Source: Saprospiraceae bacterium
GTDB taxonomy: Bacteria; Bacteroidota; Bacteroidia; Chitinophagales; Saprospiraceae
NCBI GenBank assembly: GCA_025056735.1
Contig: JANWVR010000045.1
Span: 1-55,509 of the forward strand
DNA: 55,509 nucleotides
Direction: 5' to 3'
Position numbers and translations under genes: made by a program. Under the pieces are notes generated by a model, which saw only the letters and a program-made list of their open reading frames with translations, ran no database searches and was not told the DNA's origin. Below are positions 15,489-29,761 of the stretch, in pieces (the first letter of the stretch is position 1; every line of letters begins with the position of its first letter).

Positions 15489-15526
15489 CATTTTTTTCAC
15501 TTTTCATTTTTCATTTTTCACTTCTC
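15489..15526 (+). repeat. Heptanucleotide tandem array, pyrimidine strand, before a GT-C gene
   Basis: Units CACTTTT, CATTTTT, CATTTTT, CACTTCT in direct succession, preceded by a longer CATTTTTTT unit. The array ends about 12 bases before the ATG of the following glycosyltransferase gene. Same unit family as the arrays at 18630, 21550, 27158, 29581 and 29643. Confidence 0.8.
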
Positions 15527-15537
15527 GCTGCCTTTTG

Positions 15538-17226
15538 ATGTCGTTTTTACGCTCTGACTACACGCGCGTGGCGTTGCTGGGTGTACTATTCTTGGTACCT
15601 TTTCTGGGCGGCGTGCACCTGTTTGACTGGGATGAAATCAACTTCGCCGAATGCGCGCGGGAGATGCTGCTGACGGGCGATTACTTGCGCCCGCAGATTG
15701 ATTACGAGCCGTTTTTTGAGAAGCCGCCGCTGTTCATCTGGATGCAGGCGCTTTCAATGCAGGTGTTTGGCGTCAACGAGTTTGCGGCCCGCTTTCCGAA
15801 TGCGGTAGCCGGCATCATTGTGTTGCTGTTGTCGTACCATATGGGCCGCCGCCTCCACGATCGGATGTTCGGTTGGTTGTGGGTATTGGCATGGTTAGGT
15901 AGCATCCTGCCCCACCTGTACTTCCGCAGCGGGATCATTGACCCGTGGTTCAACTTGTTCATTTTCTTGGGCCTGTGGGGATTTATCGAGTTTCGGTGGT
16001 TGTTTTTCACACGCTTTCAGGGGCGCTCGTTTTGGCGGCGCTACCGTTATCTCTTGCTGGGCGGTTGGGCGTTGGGTCTGGGCATTCTGACCAAAGGGCC
16101 GGTGGCCTACTTGATAGTCTTTTTGGTGCTGATGCTCTACTGGGCAAAGTACAAGTTTCGCAATCGAGGTTTTTTATCGCACTTTATCTTATTTAGCCTG
16201 GCGGCCTTTTCGGTGTCGGCGCTGTGGTTTGGTGTGGAGACGTTGCTGCACGGGCCGAAATTTGTGCAAGAGTTTGTGGCCTATCAGATACGCCTGCTAA
16301 CCACGGCGGACAGCGGTCATGGAGGATTTCTGGGCTATCACGTGGTGGTGCTGCTGTTGGGCTGCTTCCCGATTTCGGTGTTTGCCCTTCCCAATCTGTG
16401 GGGCGACCGCCAGCCGGAAGACGAAGTGCTGGAGTCGCACACGCTGCGCATTTGCCAGCGGTCTGACCTGACGACCTGGATGCAACTGCTCTTTTGGGTA
16501 GTGCTGATTGTGTTCAGTCTGGTGCGTACGAAGATTGTCCATTACTCCTCTCTGGCTTATTACCCGCTGACGTATCTGGGCGCTTACACCATCTGGCGAG
16601 CCATTCACTGGGATGTGCGCCCGCGCGTGGTGGCCATCCTGTTGCCTACGCTGGGCGTGCTTATCGGCGGTGTTCAGATGCTGCTGCCCTGGCTGGGGCA
16701 GAATACGCACCTTTTGCGTCCTTTATTGGCCAAAGACCCGTTCGCCCTGGCACGCCTGGAGGTTACTGTAGATTGGCACTGGTACCACGCACTGCCTGGC
16801 GCCATACTTGTTGTTGGCGTCCTGCTGGGTCTGCGCCTGTGGTTGCGCAGCAAACCATGGACAGCCGCACAAATCGTTTTTTCGGCAGGCGCTTTGTTTG
16901 TGGCGCTCACGCTCGTTCTTTGCATCGGCAATATCGAACGATACAGCCAGGGCAGCACCATTGATTTCTACAAAAGCAAGGCCCATGAGGACTGCTTCAT
17001 CAAAACAGTGGGATTTAAGAGCTATGCTCACCTGTTTTATCCAAAAAAGCCTCCCGTAAAAGACCCGACGGTGGACGAATACGCTAATCTGGCTTACGGC
17101 AATCCAGGCAAGACGGTGTACTTTGTGGCAAAAATGAACCGGCTGGAAGAGCTCCCTACCCTACCGAATTGCCGCGAACTGTATCGCAAGCACGGGATGG
17201 TTTATTTCGTTCGACAAGCCCCGTAG
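15538..17226 (+). CDS. Membrane glycosyltransferase of the GT-C / ArnT-PMT type
   Basis: 562 residues with about ten membrane helices. The first periplasmic loop carries the acidic motif FDWDEINFAECAREML, the site at which ArnT/PMT-type enzymes bind the lipid-phosphate sugar donor. EKPPLFIWMQA and LTKGPVAYL are also typical. A soluble C-terminal tail of about 110 residues follows the last helix. Such enzymes move a sugar from undecaprenyl or dolichyl phosphate to lipid A, glycan or protein on the periplasmic face; the acceptor is unknown here. ATG 15538 is preferred to the TTG directly before it. A second member of the family lies at 48110-49804. Confidence 0.85.
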   Translation: MSFLRSDYTRVALLGVLFLVPFLGGVHLFDWDEINFAECAREMLLTGDYLRPQIDYEPFFEKPPLFIWMQALSMQVFGVNEFAARFPNAVAGIIVLLLSYHMGRRLHDRMFGWLWVLAWLGSILPHLYFRSGIIDPWFNLFIFLGLWGFIEFRWLFFTRFQGRSFWRRYRYLLLGGWALGLGILTKGPVAYLIVFLVLMLYWAKYKFRNRGFLSHFILFSLAAFSVSALWFGVETLLHGPKFVQEFVAYQIRLLTTADSGHGGFLGYHVVVLLLGCFPISVFALPNLWGDRQPEDEVLESHTLRICQRSDLTTWMQLLFWVVLIVFSLVRTKIVHYSSLAYYPLTYLGAYTIWRAIHWDVRPRVVAILLPTLGVLIGGVQMLLPWLGQNTHLLRPLLAKDPFALARLEVTVDWHWYHALPGAILVVGVLLGLRLWLRSKPWTAAQIVFSAGALFVALTLVLCIGNIERYSQGSTIDFYKSKAHEDCFIKTVGFKSYAHLFYPKKPPVKDPTVDEYANLAYGNPGKTVYFVAKMNRLEELPTLPNCRELYRKHGMVYFVRQAP

Positions 17227-17356
17227 TCTTCGCTTATAAATGACTTAGTCTCCGACTGCCCACCGTCTCTTTTGCGCGTTTTACATATAGCCCGCCCACA
17301 GATACGACTGCCCATAACTGACACCTGACTGATTATCCTGTCTCACCTTATCGTCT

Positions 17357-18358
17357 ATGCACTACGAAGAAGAACCGCCTTTTGCCGATAATGACTCGCC
17401 TGCCGGCTTAGACGTATCGCCTGTCTATGCGTGCGCCACCCGCGTGCAGGAGGCTATTCAACAGGTCATCGTCGGACAGCAAGAGGCTATCGAGCAAATG
17501 CTCATCGCCCTGTTCACGGGCGGCCACGTGCTCATCGAGGGCGTGCCCGGCATCGCCAAGACGCTCATGGCCCGTCTGCTGGCACGCACGGTAGCCGCAG
17601 GCTTCAGCCGCATTCAGTTCACGCCCGACCTGATGCCCGCCGACGTGCTGGGAACGCCTGTATTCAACCTGAAAACCTCGGAGTTTCACTTCAAACCCGG
17701 GCCCATTTTTTCCAATATCGTCCTGATTGACGAAATCAACCGCGCTCCGGCCAAAACGCAGTCCGCCCTGTTCGAGGTCATGGAAGAACGCCAGGCGTCC
17801 ATTGACGGACACACCTACCCCATGGCCTCGCCTTTCATGGTGGTAGCCACTCAAAATCCTATCGAACAGGAGGGCACTTACCGACTGCCCGAGGCGCAAC
17901 TCGACCGATTCCTCTTCCGCATCCTGCTCGAATACCCCAACCTTGAGGAAGAAAAGGCCATCCTGCGCCGCTTTCACGACGACTTCGAGGGCCGGGCCGC
18001 GCAGAGCGTCCAGGCCGTCATCACGCCACAAGACATCGCCACCTGCCGCCAACGCATCGAGCAAACCCACATCAGTGAAGACCTGCTGGACTACATTGCT
18101 ACCTTGGTGCACCAGACCCGGCATCACCCAGACCTGTCCTTAGGCGCCAGCCCGCGCGCCTCGCTGGCCATCACGCGCAGCGCAAAGGCACTTGCCGCCA
18201 TGACCGGTCGCAACTTTGTAACGCCTGACGACATCCGAGCGGTTACCGTGCCCGTGCTCAATCACCGCATCCTCCTGACGCCAGAGCGCGAAATGGAAGG
18301 CTATCGCATTCAGCAAGTTATCGAAGATATCATCCGCAGCGTACCTGTACCGCGCTGA
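17357..18358 (+). CDS. moxR: MoxR family AAA+ ATPase
   Basis: 333 residues. Walker A is GVPGIAKT (about residues 62-69), Walker B is [10 protein letters not shown], and the MoxR-specific [31 protein letters not shown] and C-terminal lid segments are all present. MoxR ATPases work as chaperone-like partners of VWA-domain proteins. In Bacteroidota they usually head the moxR-DUF58-bat operon; here the gene is followed by yidD and the BatA-like gene lies 7.5 kb upstream in a separate unit. No DUF58 gene is seen in the window. Confidence 0.93.
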
Positions 18359-18389
18359 CGCATCCTCTCACACGCGCCAAACCTTTCGC

Positions 18390-18641
18390 ATGCCGCCCAT
18401 TCAAAAATGGCTCCGCCGGCTCTTCGTGCTGCCCATCCGCCTCTACCGGCTGCTCCTTTCGCCCCTGCTGGGGCCAAGCAAATGCCGCTTCCGCCCTACG
18501 TGCTCGCAATACGCCATTGAAGCCATCGAAGAGTGGGGCATCTTCAAAGGAACCTGGTTGGCCATCCGCCGCATCGCCCGCTGCCATCCCTGGGGCGGAT
18601 TTGGGTATGATCCGGTACCAAAGAAAAAGAGTGAAAAGTGA
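18390..18641 (+). CDS. yidD: Membrane protein insertion efficiency factor YidD
   Basis: 83 residues with the compact YidD pattern: an amphipathic N-terminus, [29 protein letters not shown] and [12 protein letters not shown], including the three conserved cysteines (KCRF, TCSQ, RCHP). YidD assists YidC-dependent insertion at the inner membrane. It lies 31 bp after moxR and is probably co-transcribed. The last codons (K-S-E-K-stop) run into a heptamer array; the TGA stop is the TGA of the second repeat unit, so the repeat defines the C-terminus. Confidence 0.95.
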
Positions 18642-18671
18642 AAAGTGGAAAGTGGAGAGTGGAAAGTGAAA
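18630..18671 (+). repeat. Heptanucleotide tandem array overlapping the yidD stop
   Basis: Six exact-length heptamers on the + (purine) strand: AGTGAAA, AGTGAAA, AGTGGAA, AGTGGAG, AGTGGAA, AGTGAAA. The yidD stop TGA (18639-18641) lies in unit two. The array sits between the convergent yidD and parE genes. Confidence 0.9.
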
Positions 18672-18707
18672 GAGGAGGATGACGGTTGAGGGATGGGCGG
18701 TTGGGCT

Positions 18708-20630
18708 TCAATTGTGAGCAGACTCTTCGTAGAGCGTTTCCGCTGTTGTGGAGTCCTGGTCGGCGGCGTCCTCGTTTATGGTGCTATCAGCAGCGTCCAG
18801 CTCTATGCGCAGGTTTTCGATGATAAATTCCTGGCGTTCTGGCGTGTTTTTGCCCATGTAGTAATCTAAAATATGGTCGAGGTTGGCGTCTTCGTTCAGG
18901 ATCACCGGCTCCAAGCGCATATCTGGGCCGATGAAGCGGCCAAACTCGGAGGGGGATATTTCGCCCAGACCTTTGAAGCGCGTGATTTCGGGTTTGCCGC
19001 GCAGTTTCTGGATGGCTTCCTGCTTTTCGGCTTCTGAATAGCAATAGAACGTCTGCTGCTTGTCGCGCACGCGGAAGAGGGGCGTTTCTAAGATGTAGAG
19101 ATGGCCGTTGCGTACCAGGTCGGGGAAGAACTGCAGGAAAAACGTGAGGAGCAGCAGGCGAATGTGCATGCCGTCCACGTCGGCGTCGGTGGCAATGACG
19201 ACGCGGTTGTAGCGCAGGTCTTCGAGGGAGTCCTCGATGTTGAGGGCGTGCTGGAGGAGGTTGAACTCCTCGTTTTGATACACAATTTTCTTAGTCAGGC
19301 CGTAGCAGTTGAGCGGCTTTCCGCGCAGGCTGAAGACAGCCTGCGTGTCCACATCGCGCGCTTTGGTGAGCGAGCCGCTGGCAGAGTCCCCCTCGGTGAT
19401 GAAGAGGGTAGACTCCAAGCGCTTTTCCTCTGGGCCTTTTTCGTTGAGGTGGTAGCGGCAATCGCGCAACTTTTTGTTGTGAATGCTGGCAGCCTTGGCG
19501 CGCTGGTTGGCTAATTTCTTAACGTCGGCGATGTCTTTGCGCTCGCGCTCCGATTGCTGGATGCGCTTGAGCATCTCTTTGGCCGTCTCAGGGTTTTTGT
19601 GGAGATAGTCGTCTAAGGCCTTGCACAGGAAATCGCTCATCCAGGTGCGGATGTTCGGCCCATCGGGGCTGATGCGATCGGAGCCGAGGCGCGTTTTGGT
19701 CTGAGACTCGAATACCGGCTCCTCGACGCGCACACTGACGGCAGCGATAATGCTCTCGCGAATGTCTTTGGCGTCGAAGTTCTTTTTAAAATGGTCGCGC
19801 ACGGTCTTAACCAAAGCCTCGCGGAAAGCATTCAGATGTGTGCCGCCCTGCGTGGTGTTCTGGCCATTGACGAAAGAATAGTACTGCTCGCCGTAATGAT
19901 CGCCGTGCGTGAAGGCGATCTCGACGTCTTCGCCCACGAGATGGATGATCGGGTACCGGATGTGCTCGGCGTTAGTCTTCTTCGTCAGCAGGTCGAGCAG
20001 GCCGTTCTTTGATTGGAAGGTTTTACCATTAAAAACAATCTTTAGCCCGGCATTCAGGTAAGCATAGTTCCATAATTGCTGCTCGACGTATTCCGTTACC
20101 CAGCGGAAGTGGCGAAACATGCCGCCATCGGGCTTAAAAAACACTGCCGTGCCGTTGGGTTCCGTGGTTGCTTCCAACTTGCTCTCTTTCTTGAGTTTGC
20201 CAAACTCAAACTCGGCCCACTTGCACTGGCCGTCGCGATAAGCGATCACTTTAAAATACTCCGACAGCGCATTAACGGCCTTAGTACCCACACCGTTAAG
20301 GCCCACGGACTTCTTAAACGCCTTGCTATCGTACTTGGCGCCGGTGTTGATACGGCTCACCACGTCCACCACTTTGCCTAACGGGATGCCGCGCCCGTAA
20401 TCGCGCACGTAAACGCCGCGGTCGTCAATGGTTACGTCTATCTGCTTGCCAAAGCCCATGGCGTACTCGTCAATCGAGTTGTCGAGTACTTCCTTGAGCA
20501 GGACGTAAATGCCATCTTCCGGGCTGCTGCCGTCGCCCAGCTTGCCAATGTACATGCCCGGCCGCAGGCGGATGTGTTCGCGCCAGTCCAGTGACTGAAT
20601 CTCGGCCTCGGTGTATCTGACTTCTGCCAT
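18708..20630 (-). CDS. parE: DNA topoisomerase IV subunit B
   Basis: 640 residues of the GyrB/ParE type II topoisomerase ATPase subunit. GHKL ATPase motifs are [18 protein letters not shown] and [14 protein letters not shown]. The TOPRIM domain has [11 protein letters not shown] and [10 protein letters not shown], and the C-terminal part has FKGLGEI. The N-terminus ([26 protein letters not shown]) follows the Bacteroidota ParE pattern rather than GyrB. The acidic C-terminal tail ([16 protein letters not shown]) is variable in the family. A TTG in frame at 20687 would add 19 residues; ATG 20630 fits family starts better. parC is not within the window. Confidence 0.92.
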
Positions 20631-20725
20631 ATCGCTCTTCGCCGCAATTGCCGGCTTTTGCTGCGTAGTTGTTTTTTGTGCGCCCAAAGTAACGGAGTTT
20701 TAGCGGGTTGATGAAAAAGTGCGCA

Positions 20726-20756
20726 CAAAGTTAAAACATTTTGTTTTTCCAACCAA
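20726..20756 (-). promoter_or_regulatory. Probable parE promoter
   Basis: On the minus strand TAACTTTG (20733-20726) is a full -7 match, and a TTG at 20756-20754 lies 20 bases upstream, close to the Bacteroidota -33 spacing. The leader to ATG 20630 would be about 90 bases. Confidence 0.55.
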
Positions 20757-20822
20757 GAAAATTGCTGAGCCTTTTGAACACGAAGGCGCCTGGGGATAGC
20801 TGTCTTGAAGGGCCCACGCCTG

Positions 20823-21185
20823 TCAGAAAAATGCGTCCTCAGCGTGCCGGATGGCTTTCAGCTGGCCGTTGACCAGCAGGACGGAGATGATATCGAAGCG
20901 GATTTCGCCCTCGTGGCCGATGGCCTCCATAAAAGCGCCAGCGGTGCGGGCAATCTGGTCTTGTTTTTTGCGGTTGACGGCCTCTTCAGGGCCTCCGAAA
21001 CCATCGAGAGATCGGGTTTTGACCTCGACAAAAACTAAGCAGCCTTCGGGCGACCAGGCGATGATGTCCACTTCGCCCATGCCCGCGCGGAAGTTGCGCC
21101 GGGCAATTCGATAGCCCTTTTCCTCTAAGTAATGGGCGGCAATATCTTCGCCCTTACGGCCAAGGTCGAGGTTTTCCATACTCAT
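20823..21185 (-). CDS. yraN: YraN (UPF0102) family nuclease-fold protein
   Basis: 120 residues. Signature segments are LGRKGEDIAAHYLEEKGY, RRNFRAGMGEVDIIAW and LVFVEVKTRS, which carry the Glu, the GE(V/I)D and the ExK of the PD-(D/E)xK-like fold. The family is very widespread; its function is not settled, and nuclease activity on nicked or branched DNA is proposed from the fold. The ATG overlaps the stop of the preceding gene (ATGA, 21185-21182), which implies translational coupling. Confidence 0.93.
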   Translation of the reverse strand: MSMENLDLGRKGEDIAAHYLEEKGYRIARRNFRAGMGEVDIIAWSPEGCLVFVEVKTRSLDGFGGPEEAVNRKKQDQIARTAGAFMEAIGHEGEIRFDIISVLLVNGQLKAIRHAEDAFF

Positions 21186-21541
21186 TCGTACCAGCGGCGT
21201 TTGCCTTCAAGTTTATCCACATAGGGCACGTCGCCAAGTCGAAATTTAAGCGGCAAAGGCATCCGCTGCTCCAGCCGGTGTTCCATCCGGCAAAAAAACG
21301 GCATCGGCGCAAGCGGCCGAACAACAGGCGAACTAAACCTCACTCCCCGGTCAGAAGACATCATTCCCTCCAGCGACAAGCGCCCTCGAAAATCCCACAT
21401 CCCTTTCAAAGGCAAAGAATCCTTCACACCAGATGCTACCCCATCGGGCTGGGCCAACAGTACAACTGAAGCAGTCCCAGCCAACAGCGCGACCAAAAAT
21501 CCTTTTGCATTTCTCCTCCAACCAAACACACTACCCTCCAT
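21182..21541 (-). CDS. Small exported protein of unknown function between porU and yraN
   Basis: 119 residues from ATG 21541. A hydrophobic N-terminal segment (GFLVALLAGTASVVLLAQ) looks like a signal peptide or anchor. The C-terminal half contains PFFCRMEHRLEQRMPLPL and KFRLGDVPYVDKLEGKR. I recall similar 'PFFC(K/R)xE...FRLG...Y(V)..LEGK' endings in small uncharacterised Bacteroidota proteins, but I cannot name a family. A GTG six codons upstream lies inside a heptamer array and was rejected as start. Four-base overlap with yraN and nine bases from the repeat after porU suggest one operon, porU to yraN. Confidence 0.65.
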   Translation of the reverse strand: MEGSVFGWRRNAKGFLVALLAGTASVVLLAQPDGVASGVKDSLPLKGMWDFRGRLSLEGMMSSDRGVRFSSPVVRPLAPMPFFCRMEHRLEQRMPLPLKFRLGDVPYVDKLEGKRRWYE

Positions 21542-21549
21542 TACCGTCC

Positions 21550-21575
21550 CATTTTTCACTTTTCACTTTTCACTT
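21550..21575 (-). repeat. Heptanucleotide tandem array overlapping the porU stop
   Basis: On the + strand CATTTTT, CACTTTT, CACTTTT, CACTT; purine sense relative to porU. The porU stop TGA (21572-21570) falls in the array, directly after the canonical K-L-V-I-I-K ending. Confidence 0.85.
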
Positions 21576-24500
21576 AATGATCACCAATTTCTCAAAATCG
21601 CTCTCCGCAACCGCCGTCTGGCCGCTGAGGTCAGTGCCGCGCACTTTGATGCGATAGAGATACACGCCTCGGGCCAGCGGGTTGTCGTAGTCGTCGCGGC
21701 CATTCCAGGCAATATCGGTTACGCGGAAGCCGTTGGCTATGGCCGTATGGTGTAGCGTTTTGACCAACTTGCCGGAGACGGTGAAGATACTGATTTGCAC
21801 GTCGAGCAGTTGGCCGGCTAAGTTGTGCTCAAACTGGAATAAGGTATTGGTGCTGAAGGGATTGGGGTAGTTGAGCACGTGGGCTAAGGCAGCTTTTCCG
21901 TCTTCGGCGACGACGAATTCGGTGTAGCCCTCGCCGGAGTTGTTGGCGACATCCCAGCCTTTGGCGCGGATGGTGTGGCGTCCGGGCGCCAGGCCGCGCA
22001 GCGGGTAGAGCGCTTGCCCTCGGCGGGCGTCATCCTGGGCGCTTTCGTAGAAGTCGTTAAGCACGAGGGTTTCCAGAGTGTTGTCGTCGAGCACGGCGGT
22101 CAGGTCGTGCCCCAGGCCGGCGCCGGTTACGTTCATGCCGTAGTCGTCGGTGCATTTGACCAGCAAGATGGGGCTGCGGTTGGTGATGCCGCCCTGCACG
22201 AAATCCTCGTTGTTGAGAAACACCTGGATGACGGGCGGTGTGTCGTCTTTGAGGCCCTCGAAGGTGCCGCCCACGATGACGGCGGTGTCAGCGCCGGCGG
22301 CGTCGAAAGGTGTGCCGTTTTCGGCGTAGTAGCTGATTTTGCCGTTTCCGAAGGCGTAGTTGATGTCTTTGGGAATGACAAAATTGATGCTGAAGCGTCC
22401 GCCTGTGACGGTGGCACTCCCGCGGAAGAGGATGCTGTTTTGCACCTCGAAGGGGAAGACGAAGCTGCCGGGGTCTTGAGCGAGGGTGCGGAGGGTTCGT
22501 TTTTTATCGAAAAGCGTTACAAAGACGCGGCCGTTGAAGTCGGGGAGGAGGTTGCCGTTGCGGTCGGCGATTTCGCCCTCGATGGTAACGGGCATGAGGG
22601 CACGGAGGGTATCCGGCTGGTCGGGATTGAAGGGCTTGCCGTTGAGGCGCGTGGTGCGCACCCGGTACTCGGGCAGGGCGAGGTACATGGCGGGGTCGCC
22701 CATGAGAGCGAAGCGGCGTCCGTTTTCTTCTACGTAGAAGGGCAGCGCGTTTTTAGCCCTTTGCAGGATTTCGCCGACGGTGCGGTAGCGTCCCTGGGCA
22801 TCGCGCTCGAAGAGGACATTCTGGACGGCGTCGGTGAGGGCGTTGTTTCCATTGATGAAGACCGCGCGCACAGTGGTGAACAGCGCCACAGCGCCCGAGT
22901 TGGGCTTGAGCAAGGCTTGCTCGCCGCCCGTAAGGATGGTGTAGTCGTCGAAGCCGCCAAAAGAGCAGGTAGCTGTGATGATGAGCGGATACCGATGGGT
23001 ATTGTTCCAGCCAGCGATGTCGTTGTTATCAATGACGCGCTCCTGGGCCCAGCCGCGCGGGCCACCGTGGCCAATGTACTGGGCGACCAAACAACCGCGG
23101 AAGAGATTGGCATTGATGGCAGCCTTAGCGCCGGGTATGCGCTTTTCGGTGCTGGTGGCCACCTGTTGGTAGGCGTCGAAATAGACTTTTTCCAGGTTGA
23201 ACCAGCTTTCTGTGCTGGCTGCGCGCGTGGCCAGGAGGTCTGCCTGTCGGATGTGGGCGTTCGAGTCCTCGTCGTCGGCCATGTAAAGCAGGCGCAGGCG
23301 CCAGTCGCCCAATGTCTTGGGGTCGTTGTCGTACTCGATGATTTTAGCGACGATGGCCTGTGCTTCGGCAGCGGTGCGCGGCGTAACGCGCCCTACGGCG
23401 ATGTCGAGCGCGCCTCTCAGGTCGCCGCCCTCGTTGTCGCTGAGCAGGCCAAAGTAATCTTCGGAAGGGTGTGAAAAAATGGGGCTGAAAGACTGGGCCG
23501 TCTCGAAAACGGGCACGAAGTCTAAGTTATCGGCGCTGTTGGTAATGTTGCGCGGGTCGAAAGAGGCATCGCCGAACAGCAGCAGAAATCGAAACTTGTT
23601 GGGCGAGCGCTGGTAGAGCATGCGAGCGAAGTCCCGAATAGCCGTCGGGTCTTTGGCGCCTGAGGAGAACTCGTTGTACAGCTGGTCAATGCGCACGGTG
23701 GCCACCTCTAAGCCGCTGTAGGAGCGGCGGTGTTGCGCCAGCTGGTTGACGGCGGCCTCAAAGTCGGGGTGATAGACGATGGCCATGTCTAAGTTGGTCA
23801 GGCCGTGGATGTTCTGGTTTTCAATGCGTCCGATGGGGCGTTCGGGTCGGGGCAGCGAGGCGTTGTCGTAGAAGGCGATGAAGTTGCGCAGGACGCCCTG
23901 GGTTTCTGCGCCAAATTCGGCGGTACTGCCGGCGAAGGTGTACTGCTGGCGGCGCGGCGTCTGGCGGTTGGTAATGTCCCAGATTTGGAGGTTGGCATTG
24001 GCGCCATTCAGGCGGAAACGAGCAGCCGGCTGGTTGAGCGTTTGCAAATCGCGGAATTCCATCGCCTGGCCGGTCATGATCAGGCGGCGGCGCGCCTGGA
24101 TTTCGAGGTAATCCAACCACCCTTCGCTGGGCACAGAGGCAGGCAGGTAATGCACCCGCACGCTGACGTTATCGCCGGGCATCTGAAAGGAGCCAGCCAC
24201 CAGCACGTCGTTTGCATAGTAGGCTTCGTTGTCGCTCACGGCCACACCACCGACGCTGCCCGAAAAGGTGGTACCTCCCGCCGTAAATTGCACCGTCGTG
24301 TTGCTCTGGCTGCGGCCCGCAAAGACACCGGCTATACGCGCCGGCGCGCCGGCAACGGCGTTGGGAAAGTTGAAGGTGTAGCTGCGCTCGCGGGTCTGGA
24401 AGAAATAATCGCCAAACCAGCGCTTGCCTGAGCCCTGCGCCCAGGCGGCCTGATGCAGCAAATTGACGCGGTCGTCCTCTATGCGCTGCACATCGTCAAA

Positions 24501-25433
24501 CTCCTCCGTGACGAAGGTGGCCGCCACACTCGGCTGCTCCGAAATGCGCAGCCCTGGCGCATCGCCGATGACCAAGAAGTAGTAGGCAAAGTTGTCGTAC
24601 AAGTGGGGCGTTATGGTCAGTTGCGGCAGGTTGCTGCTGGGCCGATGCGACCACGGCTGCGGCCCCACGGCGTAAAAGAGCAGGTAATCGCTGTTGTCAA
24701 ACCTACCATCAGCCTCTCCGGCTACGAAGATGGCGTTCTCGATGAGGTCGTCGGGGCGGTCTGCGCCGGCCAATTCGGGCAGCATGTTCCCGCCGTTACC
24801 GTACAGGCGAATGCGGCGCGGGTCTATGCTCTCCAGGTTGGAAATGCCCAGCGTGTTGCGCAAAAAGCTAAAGTCCAACCGATAAATGCCGCTTCGGCTG
24901 ACGCCGAACTTATAGACCGTGCCCGAGCGCAAAGCCGAATTAAAGGTATTCGGCCCACTGCGCGACAGGACGGGAGTTGGCTCCTGGGCTGAAATGCGCA
25001 CTGTCAGCGAAAACGAAACCACGCGCTCGAAGCCGCTGCCCGCACGGCGCAACGGATAAAACTGCACCCAGCCGTGGTACTGGTCGCGTTCCTGCACCAT
25101 TTCAGCGGTTACGGACAGGTCGTTCGTCAGCCGCTCTAAGTCGGGATGCGCTTTAAGCGAAATAGGTTCGTAACGCACCGAGTAAACCTCCACCGTCAGG
25201 CGCGAAGGTCCCGTCAGTGGGATGCGCTCCGCAAAAAGCGGCAACGTGGGTGCACCATCGGCGTGATACGCCCCTTCAAACGACCATTGCTCCCATACAC
25301 TACCGTCGGGGCGCTCAATGCGGCGCGGCTCCGACTCCCAGGTCAGCATACGCTCTATGCGCACGATACCCTGGCTCCACAACGCCAGCGAGCAAAACCA
25401 GAACAAAACGGCGAGCCAAAATTTCATCTTCAT
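21570..25433 (-). CDS. porU: Type IX secretion system sortase PorU
   Basis: 1287 residues with signal peptide KMKFWLAVLFWFCSLALWSQ. The central domain is a gingipain-type (C25) cysteine peptidase with the dyad His789 in QYIGHGGPRGW and Cys823 in ITATCSFGGFDD. The C-terminal 90 residues form a sorting-domain-like beta sandwich (LNYPNPFSTNTLFQFEH, then GVYLYRIKV and KLVIIK). PorU cleaves the sorting domain of type IX cargo at the outer membrane and transfers the cargo to anionic lipopolysaccharide; its own domain is normally retained. The extra 35 residues of the longest open frame lie before the signal peptide and were dropped. The usual neighbour porV is not adjacent; instead a small protein and yraN follow. 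Confidence 0.93.
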   Translation of the reverse strand: MKMKFWLAVLFWFCSLALWSQGIVRIERMLTWESEPRRIERPDGSVWEQWSFEGAYHADGAPTLPLFAERIPLTGPSRLTVEVYSVRYEPISLKAHPDLERLTNDLSVTAEMVQERDQYHGWVQFYPLRRAGSGFERVVSFSLTVRISAQEPTPVLSRSGPNTFNSALRSGTVYKFGVSRSGIYRLDFSFLRNTLGISNLESIDPRRIRLYGNGGNMLPELAGADRPDDLIENAIFVAGEADGRFDNSDYLLFYAVGPQPWSHRPSSNLPQLTITPHLYDNFAYYFLVIGDAPGLRISEQPSVAATFVTEEFDDVQRIEDDRVNLLHQAAWAQGSGKRWFGDYFFQTRERSYTFNFPNAVAGAPARIAGVFAGRSQSNTTVQFTAGGTTFSGSVGGVAVSDNEAYYANDVLVAGSFQMPGDNVSVRVHYLPASVPSEGWLDYLEIQARRRLIMTGQAMEFRDLQTLNQPAARFRLNGANANLQIWDITNRQTPRRQQYTFAGSTAEFGAETQGVLRNFIAFYDNASLPRPERPIGRIENQNIHGLTNLDMAIVYHPDFEAAVNQLAQHRRSYSGLEVATVRIDQLYNEFSSGAKDPTAIRDFARMLYQRSPNKFRFLLLFGDASFDPRNITNSADNLDFVPVFETAQSFSPIFSHPSEDYFGLLSDNEGGDLRGALDIAVGRVTPRTAAEAQAIVAKIIEYDNDPKTLGDWRLRLLYMADDEDSNAHIRQADLLATRAASTESWFNLEKVYFDAYQQVATSTEKRIPGAKAAINANLFRGCLVAQYIGHGGPRGWAQERVIDNNDIAGWNNTHRYPLIITATCSFGGFDDYTILTGGEQALLKPNSGAVALFTTVRAVFINGNNALTDAVQNVLFERDAQGRYRTVGEILQRAKNALPFYVEENGRRFALMGDPAMYLALPEYRVRTTRLNGKPFNPDQPDTLRALMPVTIEGEIADRNGNLLPDFNGRVFVTLFDKKRTLRTLAQDPGSFVFPFEVQNSILFRGSATVTGGRFSINFVIPKDINYAFGNGKISYYAENGTPFDAAGADTAVIVGGTFEGLKDDTPPVIQVFLNNEDFVQGGITNRSPILLVKCTDDYGMNVTGAGLGHDLTAVLDDNTLETLVLNDFYESAQDDARRGQALYPLRGLAPGRHTIRAKGWDVANNSGEGYTEFVVAEDGKAALAHVLNYPNPFSTNTLFQFEHNLAGQLLDVQISIFTVSGKLVKTLHHTAIANGFRVTDIAWNGRDDYDNPLARGVYLYRIKVRGTDLSGQTAVAESDFEKLVIIK

Positions 25434-25717
25434 AAATTGTCTCTTTTTGTAAAGAACCGAAAAAACACTCCGGTGGAAATACGCCCCGTTGGCGCGCTCT
25501 GGCCCAGGAGGCGTTGCCTTTGCCGGCAAAAATCCCACATGCTCTTTAAACGAATAACGCCGAATGAGCGTCCACCGAGCACCTATCTCTGACCGATAAA
25601 AATAACAGCCTTTTCATGACTCCAAAAACGCCGCCCATAACCTGCGGGTTCTGAGGGAGCAATTGTCCGAAGGAAAGAAGGCATTACAGCGTACGAAGCA
25701 CTATCTTCCGCCCCGAT

Positions 25718-26848
25718 ATGCCGTTCGAGTCTCTTTCTGCCGCACTCCTGATTTCTGCCACGGTCATACAGCTGGCTTTCTGGTGGGGCGTCTATGCGCG
25801 TTTGGCGTTCCACCGCCCGACCGCGCAAGCCGTTTTATCTGACGACGAACTGCCTCCCCTGTCGGTGCTCGTGTGCGCGCGCAACGAGGCCGAAAACCTG
25901 CAGCGCCACCTGCCCGCCCTGCTGGAACAGGACTACCCGTGCTTCGAGGTCGTGGTTGCTGACGACGACTCTTCGGACAACACCTTACAGGTGCTGGCAA
26001 CGCTACGGGCTGAATATCCGCACCTGCGCGCCATTCGCCTATCGCCCAAGATCTCACCGGGCAAAAAGGCCGCTTTGAGCGCTGCCATTGTCCGGGCGCA
26101 GCACAAATGGCTGATTTTCACAGACGCCGACTGCTGGCCTGCCTCACCGCAGTGGCTGCGCCGGATGGCACAAGCCATGCAGCCCGACCGCAGGCTACTG
26201 CCCGAAATTGTGCTGGGCTATGGGCCACTCGTGCCTGGGCCAGGTCTGCTCAACCGATGGGCGCGCTTTGAAACGCTCTACACCGCCCTGCAATACGGAG
26301 GCTTTGCGCTGAGAGGCATACCTTACATGGGCGTGGGACGCAACTTAGCCTGGCAAAAGCACCTGTTCGCACAAACAGGCGGATTTTCGGCGCATGCCGA
26401 CATAGCCTCAGGCGACGATGACCTTTTTGTCAATGCCGCAGCCACCCGCCGCAACACGGCGCTGTGCTTCGAGCCGGAAGCGTTTACCTACTCACTTACT
26501 GCGCCGACCTGGGCAGCCTGGGCCCGCCAAAAGCGCCGGCACCTGAGCGCAGGTATCCGCTATCGCTCACTGCATCAGACCCTTCTGGCAGCTTCAGCGG
26601 GCTCTCACGTGTTGCATTACGCCCTGCTCGGCGTTGTAGCGCTGGAAGGCGCCTCCCTACTCGCACTCGCCTGCTGGGCTGTCCGCATGGCCCTGGCAGC
26701 CCCGGTATTCGCCCGCACAGCCCGGCATTTACGGGAAAGCGACCTGCGCCTCTGGTTTCCCTTGCTGGATGTCGGCATGGCACTATATTGGGCCGTCTTC
26801 ACCCCTCTGGCCCTCCTCCGCAGCCATCAACAAAGGTCCTGGCGCTAA
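25718..26848 (+). CDS. Family 2 glycosyltransferase, membrane-anchored
   Basis: 376 residues. An N-terminal helix (LISATVIQLAFWWGVYARL) is followed by a GT-A domain with LSVLVCARNEAENL, VVADDDSSDNT, the DxD metal motif in FTDADCW, and an acceptor-side SGDDDLFV. A processive-type Q-R/W motif is replaced by ARQKRRH. Two or three C-terminal helices (about 290-370) follow. The layout fits Bacteroidota inner-membrane GT2 enzymes that act on lipid or polysaccharide acceptors; the sugar is unknown. TATCTTCC eight bases before the ATG is an incomplete -7 match. Divergent from porU. Confidence 0.88.
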   Translation: MPFESLSAALLISATVIQLAFWWGVYARLAFHRPTAQAVLSDDELPPLSVLVCARNEAENLQRHLPALLEQDYPCFEVVVADDDSSDNTLQVLATLRAEYPHLRAIRLSPKISPGKKAALSAAIVRAQHKWLIFTDADCWPASPQWLRRMAQAMQPDRRLLPEIVLGYGPLVPGPGLLNRWARFETLYTALQYGGFALRGIPYMGVGRNLAWQKHLFAQTGGFSAHADIASGDDDLFVNAAATRRNTALCFEPEAFTYSLTAPTWAAWARQKRRHLSAGIRYRSLHQTLLAASAGSHVLHYALLGVVALEGASLLALACWAVRMALAAPVFARTARHLRESDLRLWFPLLDVGMALYWAVFTPLALLRSHQQRSWR

Positions 26849-27157
26849 TCCCGCCATGCTGTTTTCTATTTTTCTCGGATGTTACGCCCAAGCAGCATAA
26901 GGCGTTTTGATGGCTCCAGCCTACTCGGTAAAAGCCTTTGCTACCAAAAGCTCTATTCCTCTCAAAACCTGTTGACATCCAGCATAAAGCGCTCCTTCGT
27001 GATGTGATATTTGTCAGGATGTTATATGGAGTACAAGGGTGTTCTTGCACCGCTCCACCCAATAAATCGGGCGCTTACACAATGATAGATATCCCCCGTC
27101 CCGACAGAACGGCGCCATTTGAGGAGAACAGCATTCCAACCCGCCCGCACAAGATTT
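26849..27157 (+). other. Intergenic region between two GT2 genes
   Basis: About 310 bases between the convergent GT2 genes up to the heptamer array. Small open frames on both strands have no recognisable content. There is no tRNA-like fold. ATGCTG (near 26855) and CAGCAT (near 26895) could pair weakly around a T-rich loop and may help end transcription, but this is not a convincing terminator. Confidence 0.4.
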
Positions 27158-27213
27158 CATTTTCCACTTTTCATTTTTCATTTTTCATTTTTCATTTTCC
27201 ACTTCCCACTTCC
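27158..27213 (-). repeat. Eight-unit heptanucleotide array overlapping a GT2 stop
   Basis: Eight contiguous heptamers read on the + strand: CATTTTC, CACTTTT, CATTTTT, CATTTTT, CATTTTT, CATTTTC, CACTTCC, CACTTCC. On the sense (purine) strand of the GT2 gene the array encodes the last residues (V-G-S-G-K) and its TGA stop (27194-27192). Confidence 0.9.
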
Positions 27214-27971
27214 CATTGCATTAGCGCTGGCCAAAACTGCGGTATTTTGCGCAACGGCTTGAGCCACAGCGTGAGTGGGCCAGGCGCGAGGTTGTTCATT
27301 TGCCAGGCGAGGCGGTCTTCCTGGTTGGCTCGCCAGCGCTGTCGGAGCGAGGCGTTGCTCATGCCGCCCGTTCGCATGCGCACGAGCACGCGCGGCAGGT
27401 AGGCTGCTGTAAGGCGGTATTTGTACAGGAAGCGCAGCATCAGTTCGTAGTCTGCCGACAGCCGCAGCCGCGTGTCGTACGCGCCCAGCGCGTTGTAGTA
27501 TTTTTTATAGGTAAAAAAGGTCGGGTGCGGCGGCATCCAGCCCCAGCGGAAGCGCGCGGGGCGAAAAGGGCCGGAATGCCAGTGACGCACAATCCGGTCG
27601 GGCTGATCGCGACGCACGTACTGTAAATCGGCGTAGCAGGCGTCGGCTCCGGTCTGCTGAAGCGTTTGGGCCACCCATGCCAGCGCCTCCGGCGAGACAT
27701 AGGCATCGTCGGCGTTGAGCAGGCCAATAACATCGCCGCTGGCTAAAGCAATGCCTTTGTTCATGGCATCGTAGGCGCCGCAGTCGGGTTCACTTACCAC
27801 TCGAGCCACGTGCTCAAAAGTGCGTGCAATGTCGGGCGTGCCGTCGGTAGAGGCCCCGTCCACCACGATGTGTTCTACACAGGGGTACGTCTGCTGTCGG
27901 ACGCTCTCCAGAGTATCACCAATAGTTTCAGCGCTGTTGTAGGCAACGGTGATGATGGAAATGGAAAGCAC
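27192..27971 (-). CDS. Family 2 glycosyltransferase (WcaA-like)
   Basis: 259 residues from GTG 27971. GT-A motifs: LSISIITVAYNSAETIGDTL, VVDGASTDGT, the stretch SEPDCGAYDAMNKGIALASG and the DxD-like LLNADDAY. These are typical of colanic-acid-type (WcaA/WcaE) cytoplasmic transferases. An ATG at 28022 would extend the protein by 17 residues, but a full -7 promoter element lies inside that stretch (27996-27989), so the GTG is preferred. The C-terminus ends within a heptamer array. Sugar and acceptor are unknown. Confidence 0.85.
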   Translation of the reverse strand: MLSISIITVAYNSAETIGDTLESVRQQTYPCVEHIVVDGASTDGTPDIARTFEHVARVVSEPDCGAYDAMNKGIALASGDVIGLLNADDAYVSPEALAWVAQTLQQTGADACYADLQYVRRDQPDRIVRHWHSGPFRPARFRWGWMPPHPTFFTYKKYYNALGAYDTRLRLSADYELMLRFLYKYRLTAAYLPRVLVRMRTGGMSNASLRQRWRANQEDRLAWQMNNLAPGPLTLWLKPLRKIPQFWPALMQWEVGSGK

Positions 27972-27988
27972 AGGCGTTTTTTTTGAGC

Positions 27989-27996
27989 CAAAGGTA
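27989..27996 (-). promoter_or_regulatory. Candidate -7 element for the minus-strand GT2 gene
   Basis: TACCTTTG on the minus strand lies 17 bases before GTG 27971. It argues for the internal GTG over the ATG at 28022. It forms a divergent pair with the guaA element 33 bases away. Confidence 0.45.
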
Positions 27997-28005
27997 AAGG
28001 CCTCA

Positions 28006-28037
28006 TTGATGCAGGGGTACACCTTTCCCTACCTTTG
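28006..28037 (+). promoter_or_regulatory. Probable guaA promoter, very short leader
   Basis: TACCTTTG (28030-28037) is a full -7 match, with TTG at 28006-28008, 21 bases upstream. The guaA ATG begins only nine bases after the element, so the transcript would have a leader of a few bases. Confidence 0.55.
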
Positions 28038-28046
28038 CTGCTGATT

Positions 28047-29585
28047 ATGGAGAAGATCGTCATTCTCGATTTTGGTTCTCAGTACACGCAGCTCATTGCG
28101 CGGCGCATCCGCGAGCTGTCGGTGTATTGCGAGATTGTTCCTTACCACCGCATGCCCGAGCTGACACCCGACGTGCGCGGCATCATCCTGTCGGGCAGCC
28201 CTTTTTCCGTCAAACAGCCCGATGCGCCGCGCATCCCGCCGGAACTTCTGGTGGGCCAGCGCCCAATCCTGGGCATTTGCTACGGCGCGCAGCTGATTGC
28301 CGACCACTACGGCGGCACGGTGGCGCGCTCTGAAACCCGCGAGTACGGCAAGGCCACGCTGGTCATGCACGACCCTTCCGATCCCTTCCTCCAGGGCATT
28401 TCGCCGCATTCACAGGTGTGGATGAGCCATGGAGACACAATCTTCCGGCTGCCTCCAGGTTTCCGGGCACTGGCCGGCACTGAGAACATCGTGGTGGCTG
28501 TGTACCGTGCAGAGGAAGACTTCAGCGCTACGCCAGTGTACGGCATTCAGTTCCATCCAGAGGTGTACCACACCGTAGAGGGCACGGTTTTTCTGAGAAA
28601 CTTTGTCTTCGACATCTGTGGCTGTCAGGCCGACTGGACGCCGGCGCACTACATCGAAGAAACCGTGTCCGCCCTGCGCCAGCAAATCGGTGCAGATAAG
28701 GTCATCATGGCGCTCTCAGGCGGCGTGGACTCTACCGTAGCGGCTACATTGCTACACCGCGCCGTGGGCAAGCGACTGTTCTGCTTTTTTGTGGACAATG
28801 GTCTGCTGCGGAAAGGCGAATTCGAGACCGTTTTGCACACCTATCATCAAATGGGCCTCAACGTCGAGGGTGTGAATGCCAGGACGCGCTTTTACGAAGC
28901 CCTGCGCGGCGTGAGCGACCCGGAGGCCAAGCGAAAAATCATCGGTCGCCTATTCATTGAAATCTTTGAAGAAGAAGCCCGTGCCCACGCGGACTGTCAC
29001 TGGCTGGGGCAGGGAACCATCTACCCCGATGTCATCGAGTCCGTAAGCGTCCACGGGCCGTCTGTTACCATCAAAAGTCACCACAATGTGGGCGGTTTGC
29101 CTGAAAAGTTCAACCTGAAGATCGTAGAGCCGCTGCGCATGTTGTTCAAGGACGAGGTGCGGCGCGTCGGACGCGAACTGGGCATCCCGTCCGAAATTTT
29201 AAACCGCCACCCCTTCCCTGGCCCAGGTCTGGGCATCCGCATTCTGGGCGACATCACGCCCGAAAAAGTGCAGCTGCTCCAGGAAGCTGACGCCATTTAC
29301 ATCGAAAAACTAAAAGAGTACGGCCTTTACGACCAGGTGTGGCAGGCCGGCGCCATCCTGTTGCCCATCCAGTCGGTAGGCGTCATGGGCGACGAACGCA
29401 CCTACGAACGCACCATCGCCCTGCGCGCCGTCAACAGCACCGACGGCATGACGGCTGAATGGAGCCGACTGCCCTACGACTTCTTAGCCGACGTGTCCAG
29501 CACCATCGTCAACCGCGTCAAAGGCATCAACCGCGTCGTCTATGACATCAGCACCAAACCACCGGCAACGATTGAATGGGAATGA
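28047..29585 (+). CDS. guaA: GMP synthase (glutamine-hydrolysing)
   Basis: 512 residues, normal length. It converts XMP to GMP with glutamine and ATP. The class I amidotransferase domain begins [19 protein letters not shown] and has Cys78 in [11 protein letters not shown] and the His-Glu pair in QFHPEV. The ATP pyrophosphatase domain has the P-loop [12 protein letters not shown], and the C-terminal dimerisation domain contains [12 protein letters not shown] and ends with the standard PATIEWE. An in-frame TTG at 28035 lies inside the promoter element and was rejected. The TGA stop is part of the first unit of a heptamer array. Confidence 0.97.
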
Positions 29586-29601
29586 AAAGTGGAAAGTGGA
29601 A
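29581..29601 (+). repeat. Three-unit heptanucleotide array overlapping the guaA stop
   Basis: AATGAAA, AGTGGAA, AGTGGAA on the + strand; the stop TGA is 29583-29585. The 20 bases from 29585 can pair, with G-U wobbles, with the pyrimidine array that begins 42 bases after this one. Confidence 0.8.
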
Positions 29602-29642
29602 AATATTAGGCCCTTACTGCGGCGTTTTTGGGCATTCGGCCC

Positions 29643-29761
29643 TCTCCCACTCTTTACTCTTACTTTTTCAATTCCCATCTTTAATTTCTAATTCCTGACT
29701 CCTCATTTTTCATTTTTCATTTTTCATTTTTCATTTTTCACTTTTAATTTTTAACTCCCTA
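29643..29761 (+). repeat. Seventeen-unit heptanucleotide array abutting a start codon
   Basis: Read in one register the 119 bases split into 17 heptamers. Degenerate units come first (TCTCCCA, CTCTTTA, CTCTTAC, TTTTTCA, ATTCCCA, TCTTTAA, TTTCTAA, TTCCTGA, CTCCTCA). Five perfect TTTTTCA units follow (29706-29740), then CTTTTAA, TTTTTAA and CTCCCTA. The last unit ends at 29761, directly before the ATG of the lptE-like gene. No Shine-Dalgarno sequence is present. Confidence 0.85.

Follow-up and report, generated by a model that had tools for sequence, protein, structure and literature searches.

Six tandem arrays of one seven-base unit lie between positions 15489 and 29761 of a 55,509-nucleotide contig from a Saprospiraceae bacterium (JANWVR010000045.1, the whole of which is called the window below), each at the end or the start of a gene. 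This arrangement raises the question of how a heptamer, CAYTTYY on its pyrimidine strand, comes to recur at coding edges and in a set orientation. The window is contig C146 of the draft genome G000, which comprises 3,736,794 bases (3.74 Mb) in 152 contigs. Its proteins point to Bacteroidota (protein families such as PorU, the sortase of the type IX secretion system, T9SS), and the best named relative of its GuaA is from an uncultured Saprospirales genome (72% identity), in a search that may omit the records nearest to those of the window. The arrays belong to a real, genome-wide heptamer array family with a strong placement rule. We consider it probable that they are heptanucleotide simple-sequence repeats growing and decaying in place by replication slippage at gene edges, the main alternative being that they belong with palindromic composites of the kind present in congeners.

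Heptamer arrays of the window and its genome

The arrays of the window are as follows.

15489..15526, minus strand: heptamer array of CATTTTT/CACTTTT units, pyrimidine-sense for the downstream gene (ATG at 15538); from the sequence and Tandem Repeats Finder
18630..18671, plus strand: heptamer array of AGTGAAA units, purine-sense, holding the TGA stop (18639-18641) of yidD (YidD, PF01809); from the sequence and Tandem Repeats Finder
21550..21575, minus strand: heptamer array, purine-sense on the minus strand, holding the TGA stop of the T9SS sortase gene porU (21570-25538, minus strand)
27158..27213, minus strand: heptamer array, purine-sense on the minus strand, holding the TGA stop of a GT2 glycosyltransferase gene (27192-28022, minus strand)
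29581..29601, plus strand: three-unit array, purine-sense, holding the TGA stop of guaA (GMP synthase, 28035-29585)
29703..29754, minus strand: heptamer array, the clear part of 29643-29761, pyrimidine-sense before lptE (LptE, PF04390)

All six arrays of the original prediction, which was made from the letters of the window alone, are present. However, that at 29581-29601 consists of merely three units, and 29643-29702, which had been counted into the last array, is pyrimidine-rich and is not called heptameric. Tandem Repeats Finder reports period 7 at 15494-15523, 18630-18671, 21553-21575, 27155-27198 together with 27199-27215, 29586-29602 and 29703-29752. The orientations had also been read correctly, as purine-sense at the ends of yidD, porU, the glycosyltransferase gene and guaA, and pyrimidine-sense before lptE and the gene near 15538. 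All four gene-end arrays have the TGA stop inside the array. The window contains 14 overlapping (CAYTTYY)3 matches, at least one in every array but that at 29581-29601; 200 first-order Markov shuffles of it contain 0. Not even a two-unit match lies outside 15489-29761, in agreement with the statement that the rest of the window is free of arrays. Five arrays compare with an estimated mean of ~1 (p = 0.003) for a window that was noticed for that very clustering.

The same heptamer family is dispersed through the whole genome far above chance, as had been proposed. G000 contains 200 overlapping (CAYTTYY)3 matches in its 3,736,794 bases, and 0 matches to the motif spaced at eight. The first 100 of the 200 matches form 31 separate arrays, so that ~60 arrays genome-wide is an estimate. 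A reversed-pattern control gives 35 matches, and is unclean because (CACTTTT)n matches the reversed pattern too, in another phase. Other comparisons draw on a 0.9 Mb sample of G000; stretches of this genome and of the congener G012 were partly picked for having arrays. Nine short contigs of G000 (L112-L116, L123, L131, L143 and L149) consist entirely of N. Gene edges come from a home-made codon-score caller and individual edges may be off; at L167 6481 the start appears, by eye, to be called too late. The 520 intergenic pieces of G000 hold 29 arrays of period 7, none at each of periods 4-6 and 8-11, and one at period 12, compared with 0.2 period-7 arrays in the same pieces after shuffling (five shuffles). 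No period-7 arrays occur deep inside coding sequence in the G000 sample. The arrays fit the definition of long simple sequence repeats, in which a unit of 5-11 nt is repeated in tandem more than chance would allow. Genome-wide counts no higher than in shuffled sequence, or a lack of bias in position and strand, had been named as grounds for abandoning the original prediction; both comparisons were run, and neither outcome was found.

The searches by profile and motif covered G000 and 40 congeners. Of the genomes named here, G002 and G035 are sister genomes, and G006, G011, G012, G016, G027, G030 and G034 are congeners. Array density among the congeners ranges from none in 200 kb of G011 up to 18 arrays in 140 kb of G027. 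A hidden genome-wide period-7 bias was rejected as an explanation: the array-free leaders and trailers of G000, G011 and G012 show no period-7 excess, and the trailers of G027 show at most a weak one, with lag 9 equally high. In 80 loci of named Bacteroidota (1.35 Mb), period 7 is the commonest outside coding sequence, with 23 counted versus no more than nine at each of the other periods between 5 and 11; two of the 23 are N runs, which match at other periods as well. The units vary by genome, and 9 of the 18 placed N-free arrays are no more than 10 nt away from a stop codon. Neolewinella persica, for instance, has ~14 copies of CCTGACA at L033 5435-5535.

Polarity and stop codons at coding edges

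Arrays of G000 within 30 nt of the nearest coding edge number 14 at stops and 7 at starts, and their purine strand reads outward in 17 of these 21 (p = 0.007). The corresponding count in G012 is 49 of 49. This rule is seen at starts and stops alike in both genomes, and where the nearest edge is a start the orientation is fixed in 10 of 11 arrays in G000 and in all 18 in G012. In G027, with all families pooled, the purine strand reads outward in only 40 of 69 near-edge arrays, because each of the larger heptamer families has its own direction. The AGAGGTG, AAGTGAG and AATGATG families point purine outward (33 of 36 near-edge arrays), and the ACTCAGG, ACTTAGG, AACCGAT, AACTGAT and AACAGAT families purine inward (25 of 25); three ACTCAGG arrays more than 30 nt from an edge were counted with the opposite direction. 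The outward purine fraction of arrays in the named Bacteroidota runs from 0.26 to 0.82. The purine rule holds per family, not generally, and purine richness as a general rule is refuted by the inward AACCGAT and ACTCAGG families and by this range.

The supply of stop codons by the arrays was assessed by comparing outward arrays within 10 nt of a stop with the other gene ends of the same genome. TGA is used at 9 of 11 array-bearing ends in G000 versus 260 of 674 others (p = 0.009), at 20 of 36 versus 82 of 529 in G012 (p = 2e-7), and at 14 of 23 versus 101 of 277 in G027 (p = 0.03). Ten of the 11 stops near outward arrays in G000 fall within the array or abut it. Such array-borne stops and open frames call for caution in annotation, since they move predicted gene ends.

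Two further placements were observed. In G000, an array stands just 5' of a putative tRNA gene, and the orthologous site in G035 also has an array (L155 9976-10044 and L263). In G027, AACTGAT-type arrays occupy gaps of 49-109 nt in what appears by eye to be a ribosomal protein operon (L250 6562-7050 and 14700-14730), beside start codons, as in the paper on TAACTGA repeats discussed below.

Probable growth in place and its rivals

The composition of the arrays bears on how they arose. Units were phased on the motif and poorly fitting arrays were dropped, which kept 28 of the 29 arrays in G000; in these, 134 of 165 scored units are RTGRAAA. Variation is nearly limited to positions 1 and 4 of this unit (G/A) in G000 and to position 6 in G012, and T2, G3 and A7 are almost fixed, at starts and stops alike. 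Adjacent units of G000 arrays are identical 52 times, versus 39.7 ± 4.0 with unit order permuted, and such runs are as single-unit duplication would give. The longest variant order shared between G000 arrays is not above permutation, and whole-array copying between loci was rejected on this evidence. An all-against-all comparison of 517 intergenic regions of G000 with the arrays masked found no core shared by arrays; what it recovered was a single pair and an unrelated repeat family of 27 members.

The 27-member family is a separate, dispersed set of small palindromic repeats that lie between genes of the sample, some of them following one another every 25 bp (e.g. L126 451-793). A tie between it and the arrays of G000 was rejected, as 0 of its 63 matches lie within 60 nt of an array. 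The window itself has what appears by eye to be a diverged copy at ~26997-27094, beside the array at 27158.

Coding flanks of 25 G000 array sites were sought in the sister genomes; 23 were matched in G035 and 21 in G002, and the orthologous sites were fetched and compared for all 23 and for 18 of the 21, respectively. Array length differs between orthologous sites. The edge at the 15489..15526 array (site 24) is significant for period 7 in G035 also, and site 8 has a clear array in G035 that lies beyond the stretch tested for period 7. Outward purine content at the orthologous edges averages 0.60 in the 23 G035 sites and 0.59 in the 18 G002 sites, compared with 0.50 at stops and 0.56 at starts of array-free edges in G000. 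Four genomes were compared at the end of porU: that of the window, G035, G002 and the array-free G011. Each has ATTAAGTGA or ATCAAGTGA there, and all four share the stop context AAGTGA. In the window and in G002 an array runs on from the stop, in G035 there is a degenerate purine tract alone, uncalled by the array finder, and in G011 nothing follows. The stop at porU is ancestral. The intergenic DNA beyond the glycosyltransferase stop is, counting the array, ~340 bp longer in the window than in G035, and that before lptE is ~90 bp longer.

The original prediction was that the arrays look like repeats that spread. In that form it lacks support, given the absence of a homologous core in the sampled quarter of G000, the unshared order of unit variants (with identical units running together inside arrays), and orthologous edges that carry arrays, degenerate tracts or nothing. 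Dispersal along with a core is seen in congeners, where other heptamer families flank a palindrome present in many copies. These observations on G000 and its sister genomes indicate growth in place; copying or insertion is still conceivable because of the common unit and the ~340 bp of extra intergenic DNA at one site.

Growth in place would proceed as follows. An array may nucleate on purine-rich sequence at a coding edge, often the stop codon itself (AAGTGA or AATGA), and then extend into the spacer. It would lengthen and shorten mostly by one-unit steps through replication slippage; the different array lengths at orthologous sites bear on this step, as do the runs of identical units, which are present in G000 and absent from G012. 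Purine-sense RTGAAAA units would offer TGA in every frame because seven is not a multiple of three, and therefore an array running into a gene end would become its stop. Before genes only pyrimidine-sense arrays may be tolerated, because those of purine sense put an ATG or GTG every seven bases upstream. Selection may thus keep the polarity, in that arrays so oriented provide a stop behind a gene and leave the region ahead of it free of start codons.

Several observations weigh against this explanation. Beyond 30 nt from an edge, outward polarity is found in only 4 of 8 arrays in G000 and 17 of 23 in G012, and three of the four near-edge exceptions in G000 are at stops, while the fixed orientation of the AACCGAT and ACTCAGG families of G027 cannot stem from the codon argument. 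Period 7 is significant at the same edge in only 7 of the 23 sites in G035 and 4 of the 18 in G002, and in two of those 11 another lag outscores it. G012 lacks the one-unit signature (142 adjacent identical units versus 153.9 ± 7.5); units two apart match there in excess (185 versus 134.6 ± 7.5), and the longest run shared between arrays is 12 units versus 8.7. The same unit across loci is not predicted by independent slippage, and unit variation so confined fits neither neutral decay nor independent seeding. The ~340 bp at the glycosyltransferase site are, in addition, compatible with insertion.

In a different origin, the arrays would be the ends or remnants of small mobile palindromic elements inserted between genes (a core flanked by inverted heptamer arrays, with a transposase acting in trans), and solitary arrays would have lost the core. 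We regard this as unlikely. In G027, 25 of 37 neighbouring array pairs are inverted (the other 12 are same-sense neighbours), and the inverted pairs sort by family without exception, 10 of 10 ACT- or AAC-type pairs one way and 15 of 15 others the opposite way. A GTAG(A/C)GTACACC core is present in 7 of 7 ACT(C/T/G)AGG pairs, GTAG(A/C)GT at one end at least in 10 of 11 AGAGGTG/AAGTGAG pairs (mostly GTAGAGTGTACCGC), and a GGGGTG core in 2 of 3 AACCGAT-type pairs. No such core is found, however, in the AATGATG and AAGGGGC pairs or in some others. The palindrome GTAGMGTRYACC, which gives two matches per perfect copy, has 379 matches in G027, 329 in G034, 109 in G016, 81 in G006 and 55 in G030, where its reversed control gives at most three in any genome, but it occurs just twice in G000 and five times in G012. 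In G012, 26 of 30 pairs are ordered purine then pyrimidine, some with homologous cores. The ~340 bp missing from G035 would also suit insertion. The sampled arrays of G000, in contrast, are mostly single and have no common core, and the stop context at porU is shared with an array-free genome. The Y1 transposase (PF01797), the one transposase family sought, was found in 33 of the 41 genomes searched, G000 among the 41, and has 0 matches in G000. Mobile insertion as the main cause in G000 was set aside on the lack of a shared core in the sample and of this transposase, and is kept as a rival.

A wider form of the same idea would join both kinds of genome, and is to our minds equally doubtful. 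Palindromic cores and inverted arrays might propagate together in this genus as intergenic composite elements, with the unit tied to the core and the arrays expanding outward to the coding edge. In that case the solitary arrays of G000 would represent a phase of the cycle that has no core, and other phyla would supply independent examples in their TAACTGA, GGGAATC and short tandemly repeated repetitive (STRR) heptamers.

The congeners offer further detail of their own. CACTTCT arrays occur in G027, G030 and G006, and there are four such matches in G034; the same motif search gives 34 matches in G016. Palindromic intergenic elements flanked by inverted heptamer arrays can be seen in G027 at L232 1120-1280, L241 7986-8145, L232 5436-5603 and L232 14105-14168. 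Single copies in that genome show matching changes in both arms (e.g. GTAGAGTAGACC with GGTCTACTCTAC in L242 9339-9405). At L237 10248-10695 it has a higher-order repeat of ~47 bp, in which a heptamer array plus TCCGTAGAGTGTACA occurs four times and is followed by inverted copies across a palindrome.

It is less probable still that the heptamers are functional sites at gene boundaries, where a protein with affinity for RNA or DNA would bind each unit and have a role in translation initiation or at mRNA 3' ends. The suggestion is by analogy with the protein-bound role proposed for TAACTGA repeats in Beggiatoaceae (PMC4679880). It would account for the edge placement and fixed sense of the arrays, and for the three unit positions that are almost invariant in two genomes. 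TAACTGA is, moreover, a rotation of the AACTGAT family of G027, with polarity alike, and its arrays are reported to be forward before starts, with one reverse array after a stop in Flexibacter litoralis (MacGregor 2015, PMC4679880). However, most orthologous edges in G035 or G002 carry no array, G011 has 0 (CAYTTYY)3 matches genome-wide and no period-7 array in 200 kb, and the units differ from genome to genome. That a reverse transcriptase adds the repeats by copying an RNA, in the manner of telomere addition, is highly improbable: such templating would suit the constant length of seven, the genome-specific unit and variation at single positions, and G000 has one RVT_1 match, but the array-bearing G027, G030, G006 and G016 have 0, on which ground the idea was rejected.

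Two observations on the window stand apart from the arrays. No known RNA families are found in it at gathering scores, and 3632-6604 encodes a single long protein, in which a part resembling glycoside hydrolase 3 is joined to one resembling beta-lactamase/PBP4B (PBP, penicillin-binding protein).

Relation to known heptamer repeats

The STRR unit of filamentous Cyanobacteria is CCCCART. The arrays described here resemble these repeats (PMC2670836) in being seven-base tandem arrays scattered between genes, and the likeness in form pointed out at the start is fair. Unit and phylum differ, and by neither unit nor host do the arrays of G000 belong to the class.

The TAACTGA direct repeats of Beggiatoaceae, Cyanobacteria and some Bacteroidetes (MacGregor 2015, PMC4679880) are closer in placement. 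They too are heptamer arrays in one orientation, a few nucleotides from starts and reversed after one stop in the cases described (PMC4679880), and one fixed orientation before starts is likewise found in the arrays of G000 and G012. The unit is different, being CAYTTYY in the window, and AACTGAT-type arrays occur in G027 rather than G000. The near-edge arrays of G000 are, unlike the TAACTGA repeats, more often at stops (14) than at starts (7).

GGGAATC and GGGGA(C/T)T heptamer arrays have been described in Xanthomonas and Nostoc (Rehm 2015, PMC4692102). As reported there, they are, like those described here, mostly intergenic, single or in inverted pairs, and of lengths that vary between relatives. 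The Xanthomonas arrays lie close behind the upstream gene and the Nostoc unit has one degenerate position, both as here (PMC4692102). These units are, however, G-rich and quadruplex-forming, unlike CAYTTYY. In Xanthomonas both strands are used about equally and 83% of sites are kept between two species (PMC4692102), whereas in G000 the strand follows the gene edge and most sites are not kept.

The palindromic cores of G027 resemble GTAG-tagged repetitive extragenic palindromic (REP) sequences (PMC3733652) in being short, high-copy intergenic palindromes with GTAG. Unlike in the REP elements as described there, GTAG forms part of the stem at either end, and heptamer arrays stand on both sides of the palindrome. 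In G000 neither of the features of REP sequences and their associated tyrosine transposases (RAYT) was found: there is no amplified palindromic core at the sampled arrays and no Y1 tyrosine transposase.

Reports of heptamer arrays are so far scattered over unrelated bacteria, with no consensus on what causes them. In the open-access literature, most subscription papers lying outside the search, we found no report of the two-sided polarity, of stop-codon supply or of the linkage of unit and core. With its polarity, stop use, confined unit variation and a range among congeners from no arrays to many, the present system allows slippage, selection and mobility to be distinguished. Among long simple sequence repeats heptamers are the commonest class in most genomes, for which slippage with a 7-nt polymerase contact has been proposed (Mrazek 2007, as cited in PMC4679880 and PMC4692102). 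The arrays of G000 resemble those repeats in being tandem heptamers above chance. They differ in their two-sided edge polarity and their supply of stop codons, neither of which is mentioned in that account as cited. The arrays are a known general kind of bacterial repeat, with a placement rule that is unusually strict.

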